Program-made: the position numbers and the translations under genes | Notes under the pieces: model-generated | What the model was told of the DNA's origin: nothing | The model's input: the letters and a program-made list of their open reading frames with translations, nothing else | The model's database searches: none | In this document: positions 16,205-61,970 of the stretch, piece after piece | Layout of the letters: each line of letters starts with the position of its first letter | How positions within the stretch are numbered: position 1 is the stretch's first letter | Assembly: GCF_000500935.1 (NCBI RefSeq) | Contig: NC_022998.1 | Span: forward strand, 124,001-188,000 | DNA length: 64,000 nucleotides | Origin: Spiroplasma apis B31 | GTDB lineage: Bacteria > Bacillota_I > Bacilli_A > Mycoplasmatales > Mycoplasmataceae | Direction: 5' to 3'

Positions 16205-17217
16205 TGATTAATCAAGATACTACAAATGTTTTAAATGACAATCTTGACTTAGATCAAGAAGTTGAACATGAATTAGAAGATATTGAAATAATCGAATCGG
16301 AAGGTGAAAATCAAGAATTCGTCTATCCTAAAAAAAGTCTTAAGGAAAGAATCGGCAATTTCAAAGTTGTCAAAGCAATGAAGGGGAAAATATGACCAGT
16401 TTTATTACCCTTCATACTTACAATGGTAATTTTAGTAATATTACCATTATTAGGAATCATAATATTTGCAATAGTTAAGCCAACTGGAAATAGTCTTAAG
16501 TTTTCTGTAAACTTAGATAATTTTTGAAAATTGTTTAGCTCATCAGGAATAATGTCTGTTATGGGATTATCACTTTTATATGCTTTTATAGCAAGTATTA
16601 TTTGCGTTATAATGGCCTACCCAATAGCGCTGATTCTATCTCAATTAAAAAGTAAATGAGTAGCTAAAAACGTATGAATATTATTAACTTTACCAATATG
16701 AATTAGTATGCTACTAAAAATACTTGGTTTGAGAAGTTTATTTTACTTAATGGGTTCAACAACAATAGGAACTCCGTTTGCAGTTATAATTGGAATGGTT
16801 TATATGTTTATACCATTCTCAATTTCTCCAATATATAATGCTCTAGAAAACCAAGACCCAAATTATTATCAAGCTGCGCTTGATTTAAAAGCCAGTAAAG
16901 CAAAAGCCTTTTGACATATAACTTTTAGGCAATCTTTACCTGGTATTTTCACAGCATTTACATTAGTGATTGTTCAAGCAGCAACTTCACTACTTATTGT
17001 GAGATATATGGGTGACGGTAAAATTAATTTAATTACCACAATTATTGAAAACTACTTTTTCAAAGGATCAGACTTTGGATTTGGAGCTACAGTAGCTGTT
17101 GTCCTTGCTGCCCTACTATTTATAATAATGGGGTTAATGAAATTAATTTCAAATAAATTTGAGGTAAGGGGGTCTAAAAAATGAAAAAATTCATTAAATC
17201 AAGTTACTTCGCAATAA
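16204..17217 (+). CDS. potB: Polyamine ABC transporter permease PotB
   Basis: Inner-membrane permease of the polyamine importer. An acidic cytosolic N-terminus of about 60 residues (QEVEHELEDIEIIESEGE) is followed by six transmembrane helices and the EAA-like coupling loop (AALDLKASKAKAFW). The codon at 17182-17184 is UGA (Trp), so in code 4 the frame runs on for ten codons to TAA at 17215-17217 (337 residues). It therefore overlaps the start of potCD by 37 bases. The conserved membrane region ends before this tail. Confidence 0.92.
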
Positions 17218-20200
17218 TACTATTATTTATTTATGTACCAATTGCAGTTATGATGTTTTTTTCATTTAACTCTGGAAAAACTCTTAGCTCATTTGAAGGT
17301 TATAGCACTGAATGATATAGTTACTTTCTAAGTTACTCACCATTCGTTAAATCAATTATCGTATCACTATTTGTTGCAATGGTATCGACAATTATATCTG
17401 TTGTAATTGGTGTTATGGCTTGTGTTGGTTTAGCGAGAATCAAAAGAAGACAATCTAACAACTGAGTGCGTGTAGCAAATATACCACTAGTAAATGCAGA
17501 TGTTATTACAGCTGTTGGACTGATGCTATTATTTGTTATAGCAGGTTTAAAGTTTGGAGCTTTTACTCTAATTGCAGCACACGTTTCATTTAACGTGCCT
17601 TATGTAATAATTACTGTTCTTCCATTTATGCTAAGATTAGATAAAAATATTTTGGAAGCATCTAAAGATCTTGGTGGAACACCTACAAAAACATTTTTTA
17701 AAGTTGTATTACCAATTCTTACACCTTGTATAATAACTGCATCAGCAATTTGTTTTGCTATGAGTTTTGACGACTTTATAATTTCATATTTCACAGGTGG
17801 TGGACAAACTAACGTATCAACATTTATTTATACTGCTAAAAAAATGCAACCATATATAAACGCTTTTGGTACAGTGCTTGTAGCAGTTATATTATTTGTA
17901 ATCATCATCTGAAATGCAGTTCATCTTTCATTTCAAAAAGCAAATGAAACAAAGAATCAAATTAAAAAAGGTGAATATAAAATAAAAAAAATAAGTCAGT
18001 TAAAAAAGAAAATTGCTTATTACAATAAATGTGTTGAAACAAATACAGTTCTTAGAAGAAGTATGAATATATTCAAATGAATTAATTATGGAATTATTTC
18101 ATTAGAAGTAAAAAGGTTAAATGCAATTAACCACAACGCAAAAATTAGTAAACTGGAGTGAAAACTTGATAGAATCTCAAATGAAATAAAAGAAGAGAGT
18201 AGATTGCAAACAATTCATGCAAAATTAACTCTTAAGAAAAGTCAATTGAGTTCTAAACTTGCGTTATCAAAAAATGAAAAGAGAAATAAAAAACTATCTT
18301 CATTATTGTCTAAGTTAGATAAAAAAATTAGTTATTATGAAAAAGAACTTGATTGAATCAAAGAAAGAGACTCTTACGATAAAGAGTTAGCTAATGATTT
18401 AATTAAACAAATTAACAATTTAAAAGAAGAAAAAAATGGTTTGCAAAACCCAAGTCAAAGTCTTATTACATGATATGATAAAAAAATTGCAAAACTAACT
18501 ATAAAAAAAGATCAATTGATTGAAGGAAGAAATAACTTTAAGCTTCGCTCAACAATCGAAAAAATACAAGCAGTTAAATTAAAAACTGATGAGAAAATAG
18601 CTAAAAAATATCAAATGCTAGAAGAAGCTAAATGAAAAGTATTCAAAAAAGTTTCGTTCTCAAATGCATTAGATAAAGCAATTATCAAGCTAGAAGCATC
18701 AAAAAACAAGCTTTCAAATTATCAAGAGAAATTAGCATCATATGAAGAAAGAAAATCAAAAGTAGTTGATTCAAAGTTAGCAAAAATATTATCAAATATC
18801 AAAAAGAACAATGAAAAACTAGAAAATATTAAGATTGATACAGAAAAGAAAAAAGCAAAATACTTTCCTGATGTATTGTCTGCAGATTACGTTTCAACAA
18901 GAAACAGATGATTCAAAAGAAACTGAAAACAACTTTCAATGGGAACTATTCTTTTGGGTTCATTCTCATTAGTTACAACAGCATACATTATGAACAATAT
19001 CTATGATTTGGTTATTGGTAACTGAGGAAGTTATATTGATCCAAAATTACTAGCGCAATTTGAATCTGAAAATAATGTTAAAATAAACTATCAACAGTAT
19101 GACTCTAACGAAAGTTTATATAACAAAAACTACACTTTCAATTATGACATCATGGTTCCAAGTGACTATATGGTTAAAAAAATGGCCGAAGAAAATATGT
19201 TACAAGAAATTGATTGATGTAAAATAGAAAATATCAAAACTCCTAATGAGTTATTGAATAAAAAAGAATGCTCTGATAAAAAAGATGAAAATGCAACTGA
19301 GGCTATAAATGATGCCCTGCAAGAAACTATGAAATTAACAACAGTTGGAAAAAATGAAGATTTAAATATACTTTCATATTCAGTGCCTTATGTTTGAGGA
19401 GATGTTCGAATAGTTTTCAACTTAGAAAATGAAAATGTCTTAGAGTTTTTGAAAAGTCATAATGAGGGAGAAGATATTTCATCTCCAGAAAATAACCTGA
19501 TTTATCAAAATACGGATACTCAACCAGAAGCTGATGGTTGAATACTAAATGAAAAAAATTTAAGTTGAAATATTTTATGAGAAGCAGCTCAAGAAAATCT
19601 TAACGTTGCACTTAATGAAGACCCAAAAAACGTATTTATGTATGCGTTTGAAAAATTATATGGAAATGTCGAATCTGTACCGAATAAAGATGATAACAAG
19701 ACATTACCTTCAAGAATGGAACAAATTGACAAAGCAGCCGAAGCTGTAATAGAACTATTAAAACCTAGAAATGTTGGGGTATACGGAGATCAATTAATGG
19801 ATAAAGTTCATGATGGTGATTATGATATTGCTGTTATGTATAATGGTGATGTTTTATGATCACTATCACCTGATTATGAATCAGAAGGCGGAGAAGAAGA
19901 CAGTCTTTCAAAACAAGAAGCTAGTGCAGAAGGTGATGAAGAAGAAAATGCTGAAACTCCAAAAGTTATTACTGGTGTACCTGGTGCAAAATCAGAACTT
20001 AATAAAGACAAAAAACAAAAAACAAATATTTTTAGTGACGACTTAGTTATCAGTAAAAGTAACCGTAATATTGACTTAACATACAAATTTATCAACTTTA
20101 TCTATTCTCACGAAAGTCAAATGGCTATCGTAGAAGAAACAAGCCAAACTTCTCCTTTGCAAAGTGTTATTGATAAAATACAAGAAGGCTATGGAAAAGA

Positions 20201-20318
20201 CTCATTATATGCTAAATGATTTTTACCTTCAAAAGAAGGTGAACCATTTGGATTCAATGAAGAGTTAGATAATTATTTAGTTGATAGATACAACAACATA
20301 ATAGCAACAAAAATTTAA
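17181..20318 (+). CDS. potCD: PotC-PotD fusion: polyamine permease joined to substrate-binding protein through a long coiled coil
   Basis: One 1045-residue frame. Residues 1-250 are PotC: six TM helices with the coupling loop EASKDLGGTPTKTFFK. Residues about 250-580 are a highly charged Lys/Glu/Leu/Ser coiled-coil region with heptad-like stretches. A TM helix lies around 587-607, then the PotD-like polyamine-binding domain to the C-terminus (FESENNVKI, YDIMVPSDYMV, VPYVWGDVRI, ATYKFINF-like end). PotCD fusions are known in Mollicutes; the intervening coiled coil of over 300 residues would lie in the cytosol, as the extra TM brings PotD outside. An acidic low-complexity insert (EGGEEDSLSK, GDEEENAE) sits near residues 896-930. 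Confidence 0.92.
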
Positions 20319-21819: not shown

Positions 21820-23607
21820 ATGAAAGAAGACAACTACATCTTGAAAGAAAAAAGTCTTGATACTACAACTATTCATAAAAAGAATAAAGTTAAAAAAAGA
21901 TTTTTTGCAGAAAAACAATGATATAAACTGACGTTGACAATAATTTTATGATCAGTACTCCAAGAAGTTATTATGGCTTCTACAGATTTGGTCGACAATA
22001 TTTTTGTTAACCATCTTAGGCCAGAACATATAAATGGGTTTCAAGAATTGTTAAACTACATTAAAGACTCTGGTTGAAAGGAATTATCAACAAACCCTGA
22101 TTTTTTGAAGCTACTTGAACAAAACGGATTATTAGGTTACGCTGGTGATGGTATGTTTTATGAAGCGGGTCAAATAGGTGTTAATGCGGTTTCAGCAAGT
22201 AATCAGCTATATATAATTATGTTTTGTATGGTTTCTGGTTTCTGTTATGGTGCTGGAATATTTTCAGCACAATATTTCGGTGCGGGTGAGTATCAAAAAC
22301 TAAAACAAGTAACAGCCTTGAAAATGTATTTGACATTATCAATAACAGTATTATTTATGCTGTTTGCTATACCAGGAATTACTGAGAAGATGATAGGATT
22401 CACCACTCATCCTTTAAATGTATCTAAACCAACTGACCAACTTGTAGCTGAAAAAGACTCAATTATGTCTTATTTTAGTTACTTTCAAAACGAAGCAGCA
22501 AAGCTAGCAACGCAAGAAGGTGTCAGATATTATAGAATAGTTTCAATGAGTTACATCTTATTAACAATTAATCAAGTGACTGTAACTGTTTTAAGAGAAA
22601 CAAGAAGACCATTTTATTCTTTATTTATGGCGTCAATATCACTTGTAGCTAATTCAACTTGTAATATATTCTTAACATCTCCAACATTTATCCCAGGATT
22701 TATAGGGTTTGGAGTTGAAGGTTCTGCATATGGAACAGTTGCTTCTAGAATAATGCAAACTATATTCATTTTTTGCTTATTATCAATTAAAAGATTCGAA
22801 TTCATTCCTAGAATCAAACATTTTTTGATAAATAGAATCATTGTAAAACTTGTTCTTTTGAAGTCTATTCCGATTTTATTTAATGAAACACTTTATGCAT
22901 TTGCACAAGTATTACAAGTTAAATTGAGAGCTTTATACTCCGTAGAGTCACTAACGGCTAATGCAATGTATGAAACCATGTTAATGGCCTTCTTCTCGCC
23001 AATGTATCATGGTTTAAATGCCGGTATATCAACCCTGGTTGGAAATGAGCTAGGAGCACAAAGGTTTGATAAAGCTAAATACAACGCTACTCATTTAATG
23101 AGACTAAGTTTTGTTATAGGTATATGTTTTACAGCATTATTATCTGGTCTTTCATTTGTAATTCCAAACTTGATATTCCCTAATGCTCTTCCTGAAGCAA
23201 ACAGGATTGGTATATGAATGATTTTTATATATACTATGACTTATCCAGTTATTATGATTAATAATTGTTGTTACTCCGTTCTAAGAGCGGGTGGTAGTGT
23301 TATAAGTTCATTCTTGATGGATTCTGGATTTAATTGAACTATTCAAATTCCAACTCTAGCATTTCTTATATTAGCTAACAAACACATTTTCCCAGAGTCA
23401 GGGCTATTCACCTTAGACATCGTATGAGTTCATTTAATTACATGTCTATGCGAAACATTTAAGTTGATACCTGCATTAATTTTATACTTCAAGAAAACAT
23501 GGGTTAGAAGTTTAATTGAACCTAAAGAAGAAGATCCAACATATATTTTAACAGCAGACGGAAAATCAAAAATTGACGATCTCAAAGAAGTAAAATCAAC
23601 TAATTAA
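21820..23607 (+). CDS. MATE family efflux transporter
   Basis: Multidrug/toxin extrusion proteins export organic cations in exchange for Na+ or H+. At 595 residues this is longer than the usual 450 or so. It has a 30-residue basic N-terminal tail, a soluble insert between TM1 and TM2 (about residues 67-120), another after TM3 and a hydrophilic C-tail. Family features include ASNQLYIIMFCMVSGFCYG in TM2, ETLYAFAQVLQVK at the start of the second half, and YETMLMAFFSPMYHGLNAG. The ATG follows AAGGGGTAATC. UGA Trp codons are frequent. Substrate unknown. Confidence 0.87.
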
Positions 23608-23620
23608 AGTTGATTTTTTA
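23592..23620 (+). terminator. Terminator of MATE gene, overlapping its stop codon
   Basis: AAAATCAACT (23592-23601) and AGTTGATTTT (23608-23617) form a 10-bp stem with a loop that contains the stop codon. The T-run also holds the -35 of the next promoter. Confidence 0.82.
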
Positions 23621-23639
23621 TATTAAGATAAGTTATAAT
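23610..23639 (+). promoter_or_regulatory. Promoter of the mgtA leader-mgtA transcript
   Basis: TTGATT (23610-23615), 18-base spacer and TATAAT (23634-23639). Predicted start near 23646, about 20 bases before the leader ATG. Confidence 0.65.
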
Positions 23640-23666
23640 TAATAAGCATTAGAAAGAGGTGGTAAT

Positions 23667-23756
23667 ATGAGCATTCCTTCCGCCAAAATGGAACTTATCA
23701 ATAAAAATAGAAATAAAGGGAGTGCCATATTATGCACCAATTTTTCAGTAGTATAA
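23667..23756 (+). CDS. 29-residue leader peptide upstream of mgtA
   Basis: ATG to TAA after a good Shine-Dalgarno (AGAGGTGG, 23655-23662). The peptide is basic in the middle (LINKNRNKGS) with a hydrophobic/Cys-containing end (AILCTNFSVV), and has no match I know. It lies between a promoter and the Mg2+ ATPase gene. Codons 17-20 of the ORF form one arm of a hairpin that competes with masking of the mgtA ribosome-binding site. By position it resembles enterobacterial mgtL, but the sequence is unrelated and lacks the acidic/proline stretch that drives mgtL control. Confidence 0.6.
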   Translation: MSIPSAKMELINKNRNKGSAILCTNFSVV

Positions 23757-23783
23757 AACGAGCACTCTCTTTAAAGGAGAGAG
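23717..23783 (+). promoter_or_regulatory. Mutually exclusive hairpins controlling the mgtA ribosome-binding site
   Basis: Hairpin A: AGGGAGTGC (23717-23725, inside the leader ORF) with GCACTCTCT (23762-23770), nine pairs including one G-U. Hairpin B: CTCTCT (23765-23770) with AGAGAG (23778-23783), loop TTAAAGG, which buries the AAAGGAGAG ribosome-binding site of mgtA. The two share 23765-23770, so only one can form. Leader translation would block A and favour B (off); stalling or failure early in the leader would favour A (on). Confidence 0.6.
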
Positions 23784-23786
23784 GTT

Positions 23787-26492
23787 ATGAAAAACGAAAT
23801 TAAAAATAATAATAAAAAAAATACAGCTAAAAATATGAGCAATGAACTAGCTGTTTTCTCAAATGTATCTTCTAAAGAGGTTTTAAAAAAGTTTAACATT
23901 TCAAGATTTGGTTTAAATGACGACGAAGTTGAAGAACTTGCAACTAAATATGGGGAAAACAAACTTGATGCTAAACGTTTTAATGTTTTCAACGCATTTG
24001 TTAAATCTTTTTTAAGCCCTTTTAACTTAATTTTAATAGTTATTGACTCGTTTAGCTTTTATCAATATTTTTCAGATAGTGGGTCAGAAATATTCGATCT
24101 TTTCGGAGCTTTATTGGTACTATTTATGATTGTTCTAAGTGGAACAATCACATTTTTTCAAGAAGTTAGATCATTTCTTGTCATTAAAAAAATGAAATAC
24201 GATAGTAAGCAAACATGTAAAGTAATAAGAAATACAGAGTTTAATGTGCAAACAATTGATAATGCCAACTCTATCAAGTTGATCAAAGAAGCACATAATA
24301 TCATTACAGAAGAACTTGTCCCTGGTGATTTGATTTATCTATCAAACGGTGACTTAATACCAGCAGATGTAAGAATTGTTTGATCTAATAACTTATATCT
24401 TAATCAAGCTGCATTAACAGGAGAATCATTTCCTGTGCAAAAAAAAGATACAAATATCAACACAAATTATTTGGAGTATGAAAATATTTGTTATACAGGA
24501 ACAGATGTAGTTTCAGGTTCAGCATTAGCGATCGTTGTGGCGACAGCAAAAAACACATACTTTTCTACAATAAATGACAAAATAACAGAAAAAAGACCAA
24601 AGAGTTCATTTGATAAAGGTATTCGTAAAATAACATTTTTATTGATTGCTTTTATGCTTGCAGTTACTCCAATTGTTTTATTAGTTTTTGGTCTAAGACC
24701 TATTGGAGATGGCAAATGATTAAATGCAGCATTATTCTCTTTATCGATAGCAGTTGGACTTACTCCAGAAATGTTACCCATTATTGTTACCTCAAATCTT
24801 ACTAGAGGTTACTCTAAAATCAAAAAACACAATGTTTTAGTTAAAAACTTAAATGCTGTACAAAACATGGGTGCCATTGATATACTTTGTACCGATAAAA
24901 CAGGTACTATAACAAATGGTGAAATCATATTGGAAAAAGTATTGGATGTTACAAATCAACGTAATGAAAAATTAAATAGAATTTTGTATTTAAATAGCTA
25001 CTTCCAATCTGGATTTCAAAATCCAACAGATAATGCTGTATTATTATCAAACTTAATCGATAAACCCAATGTTGAAGAGTATGTTAAAGAATGAGAAGTT
25101 CCATTTGACTTTAAAAGAAAAATGTTATCTGTAATTCTTTCTAAAAAAGAACAAAAGGAAATATTCACTAAGGGCGCAATTGAAGAAGTTTTAAAAATTT
25201 GTGACAGAATAGCTGTGAATGGTGTAATTGAACCATTAACAGATGATTACAGAGAAAAAATAGTAAGTAAAGCAAAGGCTTTAAATGAAGATGGATTTAG
25301 AGTTATAGGTGTAGCTCACAATGAGTTAGAGGACGAAGACATAGAAGAAGATTTGATATTTTATGGTTTCGCTACTTTCTTCGATGAACCAAAAACCACT
25401 TCAAAAAAAATTATAAAAAACTTAAAAAATAAAGGAATCGATGCAAAAGTTCTTACTGGTGATAGTGAAGTTATCACAAGAGCAATTTGTAAAAAGGTCG
25501 ACTTTAAAATAACAAAACTTTTCTCTGGAAAAGAAATTGAAGAAATGAATGAATCTCAACTTGCTAAGGCGGCACGAGAAGGAAACGTTTTCGTCAAACT
25601 GAGTCCTTTACACAAGTCTATGATAATCAAAGCATTAAAAGATCAAGGTCACGTAGTTGGTTTCATGGGTGATGGGATAAATGATGCGCCTGTTCTTAGA
25701 GAGTCTGATGTTGCAATATCATTTGCAAATGCTTCAAACATTGCTCAAGATGCAGCAGACATCATATTGATGGATGACTCTTTATTACCAATAGAAATAG
25801 CAGTTCATGAAGGAAGAGTTTCGCTAGCTAACATTCTAAAATACATAAAAGTTACAATTGCTTCAAATTTTGGAAATGTTCTAAGTGTATTGGTGGCATT
25901 ATTCATAACTGTTGTTTCACCAATGCAACCAATTCACTTACTTCTTCAAAATCTTTTATATGATATAGTTATGTTTGCATTTATTTTTGATAAAGTAGAC
26001 AAAAAGTTTACTGATAATCCACGACCACTTAGAACAAAAAATATCATATGGTTTACTTTAATAAACGGTCCGGTAAGTTCTATATTTGATATACTAACGT
26101 TCATTGTTTTACTTTACGGATTCCAAAGTTATATTGGAATAAAACCTGGAATAAATGTTGACCCAGATAGTTTTGATGCCAGCTCTACTAGTCGCTTTAA
26201 TGCATCTTGGTTCGTAGTCGGTTTAATGACGCAAACTGCAGTTATGCAAATGTATCGAACAGAGAAATTACCATTTATTCAATCGAATGCATCATGACAA
26301 GTGAATGCATCTACAATATTTGTTTGTGGTATGGCTATATTAGTCCCATACTCACCAATAAATAGACTTGTTAAAATGGAACAACCACCATTGGTATTTT
26401 TACCGGTTGCTTTGTCATTTGTCTTATGTTACATAATGCTAGCACAATTGGTAAAAACACTTTATATAAAAAGATTTAAAGAATGATTATAA
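23787..26492 (+). CDS. mgtA: Magnesium-importing P-type ATPase (MgtA type)
   Basis: P3B-type ATPase of 901 residues, the usual length for MgtA. The phosphorylation site is CTDKTGTIT (Asp), the TGES-like actuator motif is TGESFPVQ, and the hinge is MGDGINDAPVLRESDVAIS. The TM4 region VGLTPEMLPIIVT is nearly identical to the MgtA/MgtB signature and separates it from Ca2+ (SERCA-like) or K+ pumps. Family role: Mg2+ import when external Mg2+ is low. The ATG follows AAAGGAGAGAGG within a regulatory hairpin. UGA Trp codons include the penultimate codon. Confidence 0.93.
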
Positions 26493-61833: not shown

Positions 61834-61970
61834 AGTCTTATTAAGAACTACTGAGAGAAAAAACTCGACGAAGTAGTAGCAACCTTTTAAGTTAGGTGCT
61901 TAAATTCAGGGGAAACCAACGATGAGAAGAAGATAACTTTAAATGTGTCCCTTCTTAGTGGGACTTTTTT
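61834..61970 (+). ncRNA. SAM-I (S-box) riboswitch with intrinsic terminator
   Basis: The S-box core is recognisable: TCTTATTAAGA, GACGAAGTAGTAGCAACC, TTAGGTGCTTAAATTC and GATGAGAAG, the last able to close P1 with TCTTAT. The expression platform is a terminator GTCCC (61947-61951) / GGGAC (61960-61964) plus six T. AAGAAG (around 61926-61932) can pair with CTTCTT (61951-61956) as antiterminator. When SAM binds, P1 forms, the terminator folds and metK is off. Confidence 0.9.

Follow-up and report, generated by a model that had tools for sequence, protein, structure and literature searches.

The DNA considered here, the window, is a 64,000-nucleotide stretch from Spiroplasma apis B31 (NC_022998.1, positions 124,001 to 188,000 of the forward strand), and coordinates below are counted from its first letter. 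Our subject is the region upstream of mgtA, which encodes a magnesium-translocating P-type ATPase. A short leader open reading frame (ORF) and a set of overlapping RNA helices precede the gene; both are conserved in relatives, and they point to a switch that would act on the initiation of mgtA translation.

Results

In the window mgtA occupies 23787-26492 on the + strand and encodes, in genetic code 4, a protein of 901 amino acids that matches TIGR01524 with 855.7 bits (cut-off 610.75); its Shine-Dalgarno (SD) sequence is AAGGAG at 23774-23779. Upstream on the same strand lies a leader ORF of 29 codons that contains no TGA (MSIPSAKMELINKNRNKGSAILCTNFSVV, 23667-23756), preceded by the SD sequence GAGGTG (23656-23661), which relatives retain. 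Its first codons spell the conserved block M-S-I-P-S (23667-23681) with the rare TCC as codon 5 (23679-23681), and leaders of this kind are called MSIPS-type below. A promoter-like + strand site, TTGATT-18-TATAAT (23610-23639, with TATAAT itself at 23634-23639), agrees with the consensus at 10 of 12 positions. Sites of this type are not rarer in the region than chance (10 versus 7.8 in shuffles), but TATAAT recurs at this position in related genomes. No further copy of the leader was found in the same genome.

The 165-nt leader RNA folds with -38.7 kcal/mol, compared with a mean of -23.0 for shuffled sequences (z -4.4; none of 200 shuffles as low). Two hairpins had been recognized in the original prediction, which was made from the letters of the window alone: one joins 23717-23725 to 23762-23770 by nine pairs, one of them G-U, and the other joins 23765-23770 to 23778-23783 by six pairs over the mgtA SD. 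These hairpins overlap and are mutually exclusive, and they are present in the sequence together with the promoter and the 29-codon ORF with its ribosome-binding site, as had been described. A third helix, absent from that description, pairs 23646-23679 with 23717-23752 through 31-32 base pairs with bulges; it is the strongest of the three, encloses the leader's own SD and start codon, and supplies most of the stability of the leader fold.

Adding this helix to the two hairpins turns the region into a four-segment switch. Segment 1 (23646-23679), supported by the fold and the permutation test described below, spans the leader SD and start and pairs with the whole of segment 2 (23717-23752), the 5' part of which (23714-23726) can alternatively pair with segment 3 (23760-23773). 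Segment 3 thus takes as its partner either 23714-23726 or segment 4 (23776-23786), which holds most of the mgtA SD and the spacer and in the closed state is paired with 23761-23772. When helices 1:2 and 3:4 form, the mgtA ribosome site is hidden, and when 2:3 forms it is freed.

Searches for other regulatory elements at the leader were negative. No Rfam family reached its gathering score there, a permissive search of 23500-23900 returned three matches that were all far under their gathering scores, and the covariance model of the M-box riboswitch (RF00380) had no match in the window. Between the leader and mgtA the + strand showed no terminator-like site, and transcription attenuation by an intrinsic terminator was therefore rejected. 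Two terminator-like sites lie on the - strand inside the leader (23721-23738 and 23765-23783), most likely as a by-product of the hairpins.

We surveyed the region upstream of the best mgtA match in the 58 of 60 genomes of the organism's own family that have one above the cut-off; the genome groups (g2, g7, g8 and so on) rest on manual sorting by peptide similarity and not on a tree. An MSIPS-type leader precedes mgtA in 29 of the 58: all 20 genomes of the same genus, G003, seven genomes of g7, and G050. These leaders are 24-32 codons long and their stop codons lie 25-53 nt from the mgtA start, save for 17 nt in G031. In another 13 genomes (two of g2, three of g9, four each of g11 and g12) the leader carries an acidic/Pro motif near its start, and four (G014, G027, G016 and G019) have a leader ORF with neither motif. 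In G005 an 11-codon ORF carries ELPES and the mgtA start is unclear. Six extra mgtA copies occur in g8 genomes; five have no SD-led ORF, and the second copy of G023 has one of 44 codons. At four g8 loci without a leader ORF (L107, L108, L115 and L116) a repeated stem-like stretch, TTTAGGA...TCCTAAATTTATAATTTAGG, stands upstream of mgtA, and another kind of element may act there.

A search of the 60 genomes with an MSIPS pattern gave 26 matches, one per genome and each directly upstream of an mgtA match, whereas the reversed pattern, used as a control, gave none; the pattern was derived from the same leaders and misses G031, G037 and G046. A scan of a genome collection, the results of which may omit records close to the window genome, yielded 13 records, of which 11 belong to other phyla and the remaining two to Spiroplasma sp. 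TIUS-1 and Mesoplasma grammopterae. The gene downstream of the leader was an Mg2+ ATPase gene in every case found. Conservation in relatives supports the original prediction, and the leader ORF and its codon block are kept across genera.

We assessed the helices across species by cutting leaders into four non-overlapping segments and comparing native duplex energies with those obtained when segments were swapped between leaders in every combination. The 30 representatives (13 of the MSIPS type, 11 with other leaders from the family and six from other families) were picked by hand, so that kinship is removed only in part. G005 was excluded because of its unclear mgtA start, and G037 replaced G031, in which segment 3 is empty. 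Native pairings were better than exchanged ones for 1:2 (z -10.3; 28 of 30 beat their own cross mean), 2:3 (z -9.9; 23 of 30) and 3:4 (z -3.0), whereas the control pairs 1:3, 2:4 and 1:4 were not (p 0.87, 0.94 and 0.47). The MSIPS set by itself gave z values of -4.4, -5.9 and -2.0 for the three helices, and in the six leaders from other families 1:2 (z -3.8) and 3:4 (z -2.5) held and 2:3 failed (z -0.2). Taken together, the computation shows support for the three helices across lineages.

To relate the switch to translation, we computed how much energy it takes to open the mgtA SD and start with each codon in the ribosomal P site, using a 30-nt footprint. In this thermodynamic model the window leader without a ribosome requires 11.2 kcal/mol. 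The cost falls to 1.5-2.0 kcal/mol with the P site at codons 1-6, rises to 3.3 at codon 7 and 7.2 at codon 8, and is back at 11.1-11.2 at codons 9-15; with the stop codon (codon 30) in the P site it is 1.4 kcal/mol. The modelled opening window coincides in this computation with the conserved codon block. Across 24 representatives, a ribosome at codon 4 brought a mean relief of 2.83 kcal/mol, compared with -0.04 when the middles of the leaders were shuffled; the relief was above the shuffled mean in 21 of 24 (Wilcoxon p 2.5e-5), and in 15 of 24, including 10 of the 13 in the MSIPS set, no more than 1 of 30 shuffles equalled it.

Within the MSIPS leaders, codon 4 is Pro in 29 of 29, written with three different codons (CCT 19, CCA 7, CCG 3), and codon 3 always encodes Ile, Val or Leu. 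Codon 5 is TCC in 26 and CTC, encoding Leu, in three, so that every leader has a rare NNC codon at this position (in 40 ORFs of the window, TCC accounts for 2.3 and CTC for 1.9 of every 1000 codons). Variation climbs immediately from codon 6. In eight leaders (G003, G007, G012, G032, G035, G044, G037 and G050) arm 1 of helix 1:2 stops before codon 5, and pairing in 1:2 therefore does not explain codon 5 there. The conservation of ORF and codon block is shown by these computations.

The 13 acidic/Pro leaders have D or E at position 10 in 12 cases and Pro at position 12 in 11 (Pro 11 in G053 and G056), and residues 2-9 are variable, which leaves the motif at a fixed distance from the start. Codon 14, two after the Pro, is TCC in four, CCC in two and TCG in two of the ten leaders of g2, g11 and g12; TCG is not a U34-C codon. 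The genome of the window has 29 tRNA genes, with UGA and GCU as its only Ser anticodons. TCC must therefore be read by U34-C wobble, as must CTC, CCC, GTC and GCC.

For the acidic/Pro leaders a model with a single ribosome at the motif found no support. A second, queued ribosome cut the opening cost by at least 2 kcal/mol in eight of them (G052, G053, G054, G057, G058, G047, G048 and G049), an effect that mostly extended to codon 14 for the leading ribosome; relief was little or none in G001, G002, G055, G059 and G056. A post hoc reading of the model is that acidic/Pro leaders might act through a ribosome queue.

The survey also took in the sequence upstream of mgtA at 37 loci from other families (f2, f3, f5 and f7). 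M-box riboswitches precede mgtA in five of the six f5 loci scanned, out of nine in the set (L138, L139, L140, L141 and L145; 107-134 bits), and ORFs that resemble leaders with other peptides (MELQSSER and its kin) precede it in genus g18 of f7 and in f3. The f7 ORFs are similarly placed: L159 ~617-682 (MELQSSER...), L160 ~615-683 (MELQSGER...) and L156 ~623-688 (MEVQSSDR...). With the M-box in f5 and leader ORFs elsewhere, the order appears from these sequences to hold at least two solutions for mgtA control.

Two features elsewhere in the window deserve mention. A SAM riboswitch (RF00162, 61835-61928; 46.3 bits, gathering score 44.4) lies directly before an ORF at 61945, the product of which resembles S-adenosylmethionine synthetase. 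At 17181-20318 there is a single frame of 1045 amino acids that resembles a fusion of a PotC-type permease with a PotD-type binding protein.

Discussion

From the sequence and the folding model, we consider it probable that mgtA is governed by translational attenuation through the leader peptide, being off when the leader is unread and on when a ribosome is held early. In free RNA, helix 1:2 would bury the leader SD and start against the middle of the ORF and 3:4 would hide the mgtA SD, keeping mgtA off. A ribosome held on the first codons, roughly 1-7 and thus on the MSIPS block, would cover segment 1, allow 2:3 to pair and so free the mgtA SD. Once the ribosome runs past about codon 8, 1:2 and 3:4 would re-form and mgtA would return to an off or low state. 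We infer that ribosomes are held at the early codons, that low Mg2+ is the cause and that mgtA output responds. Control at the level of transcription is unlikely, given that there is no + strand terminator and that a search of the genome for Rho gave a best score of 43.1 bits against a cut-off of 509.45.

The original prediction of a leader peptide with switching hairpins aimed at the initiation of mgtA translation is supported by these computations and by conservation in relatives, and its proposal that early stalling turns mgtA on is what the ribosome model predicts. It had also held that reduced leader translation would do so. Here the model departs from it: without a ribosome 1:2 forms, 2:3 is blocked and 3:4 closes the mgtA site, so that absent leader initiation predicts an off state. 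The earlier statement is probably wrong for lost initiation and right for early holding.

As to what would hold the ribosome, one reading takes the decoding of the codon as the sensor. A U-C pair is weakly decoded and may depend on Mg2+, and falling Mg2+ would hold ribosomes at the U34-C codon or, in the acidic/Pro leaders, queue a second ribosome onto the start. This reading draws on codon and tRNA content, and we regard it as distinctly unlikely; if true, Mollicutes would have turned their reduced tRNA set into an Mg2+ sensor. Early acidic residues as the explanation for all leaders were rejected because the MSIPS type is without them.

The same RNA switch could instead report a signal other than Mg2+, with the held ribosome registering charged Pro or Ser tRNA, a polyamine or general translation stress. 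Residues 4 and 5 combine one Pro with one rare Ser codon, and the Salmonella mgt leaders answer other cues too, charged tRNA-Pro among them, according to PMC8092293. However, one Pro and one Ser codon would serve an amino-acid sensor poorly, codon 5 encodes Leu in three leaders, and the regulated gene is consistently an Mg2+ ATPase. We think this alternative unlikely, if worth keeping in view. Quite improbable, in our judgment, is a peptide-free element in which the helices respond to Mg2+ directly and the short ORF is incidental. RNA helices are generally stabilized by Mg2+, and M-box RNAs fill the same role before mgtA in another Mollicute family. Yet a strong SD, an open frame and an early codon block are conserved, Pro4 is kept through three codons, pairing cannot account for TCC in the eight leaders whose arm 1 falls short of it, and no aptamer family matches.

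Plain coupling would involve no sensing: ribosomes that terminate on the leader would boost mgtA translation by opening its start site or reaching it. This would fit the distance from leader stop to mgtA start and the low opening cost with the P site on the stop codon, but it leaves helix 1:2 and the early codon block unexplained, and we hold it to be very improbable. Chance folding of AT-rich intergenic DNA around a chance ORF, for which the background-level promoter scan might be cited, is scarcely credible and is refuted at the sequence level by the permutation and shuffle tests and by conservation over genera.

Several observations weigh against attenuation by an early-held ribosome. Helix 3:4, which would hide the mgtA SD, is the weakest of the three, with 20 of 30 representatives better than their cross mean. 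The footprint model is static; nine of its 24 representatives (G045, G036, G050, G054, G059, G056, G001, G002 and G016) do not stand out from shuffles, and a single ribosome at codons 12-13 brings no clear relief in any of the 13 acidic/Pro leaders. In 11 of the 58 genomes, namely G051 and ten of g8, no convincing leader precedes mgtA. The MSIPS leaders also lack early acidic residues, which are functional in MgtL and MgtQ. Finally, the conserved Pro4 of Salmonella mgtQ works by base pairing and not as a residue (PMC8092293), which calls for caution in reading Pro4 here as a stall signal.

Of known systems, mgtQ-mgtB of Salmonella provides the closest parallel to the attenuation that we favor. 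As described in PMC8092293, its four-segment logic was demonstrated by mutation: loss of the start codon lowers mgtB translation and slow leader translation raises it. There too a short ORF precedes the gene of an Mg2+ P-type ATPase, stems 1:2 and 3:4 stand against 2:3, 3:4 hides the target ribosome-binding site, and slowed leader translation turns the target on. There are differences as well. mgtQ has eight codons, sits inside an operon between mgtC and mgtB and has acidic residues at positions 2 and 5 (PMC8092293). The Spiroplasma leader directly follows its promoter, has no acidic block and is unrelated in sequence; none of the MSIPS leaders has acidic residues at 2 or 5, so that they are not mgtQ homologs, and the host, unlike that of mgtQ, has no Rho above the cut-off and reads TGA as Trp.

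The mgtL-mgtA pair of E. coli and Salmonella likewise places a leader peptide before mgtA, and its early Pro and acidic residues resemble the leaders of the sister genera (PMC11282234). An acidic/Pro motif similar to its EPDP is absent from the window leader and occurs in the 13 sister-genus leaders. The output of mgtL is Rho-dependent termination, whereas here the target would be the mgtA SD. The original prediction spoke of an analog of mgtL that evolved independently; the leader is unrelated in sequence to MgtL, and in mechanism mgtQ-mgtB comes nearer than mgtL-mgtA. A search of the literature, not carried to full-text depth, found no Mollicute leader peptide for mgtA.

In ermC, a ribosome that halts while translating the leader peptide causes the mRNA to refold, which uncovers the SD of the downstream gene (PMC5118997). 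The window element shares the exclusive pairings, 1:2 with 3:4 versus 2:3, and a downstream SD in segment 4; exposure of that SD by a ribosome at a defined leader position is found in the thermodynamic model only. Arrest in ermC depends on a drug, whereas here there is no drug, the target is a metal transporter and holding would occur within the first codons. The M-box (ykoK) riboswitch also controls an Mg2+ transporter gene in cis, and differs in being an aptamer RNA without a leader peptide.

The logic of the switch is as in Salmonella mgtQ and in ermC, on unrelated sequence. These comparisons suggest that an Mg2+ pump in Mollicutes, which have few regulators and here yielded no Rho, is controlled by monitoring the ribosome. 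A four-segment logic like that of mgtQ would recur in a different phylum on a peptide of unrelated sequence, with the M-box retained in a sister family. It would offer a testable case of convergence and a way to ask what can be sensed by a single rare codon or by a nascent peptide of very few residues.
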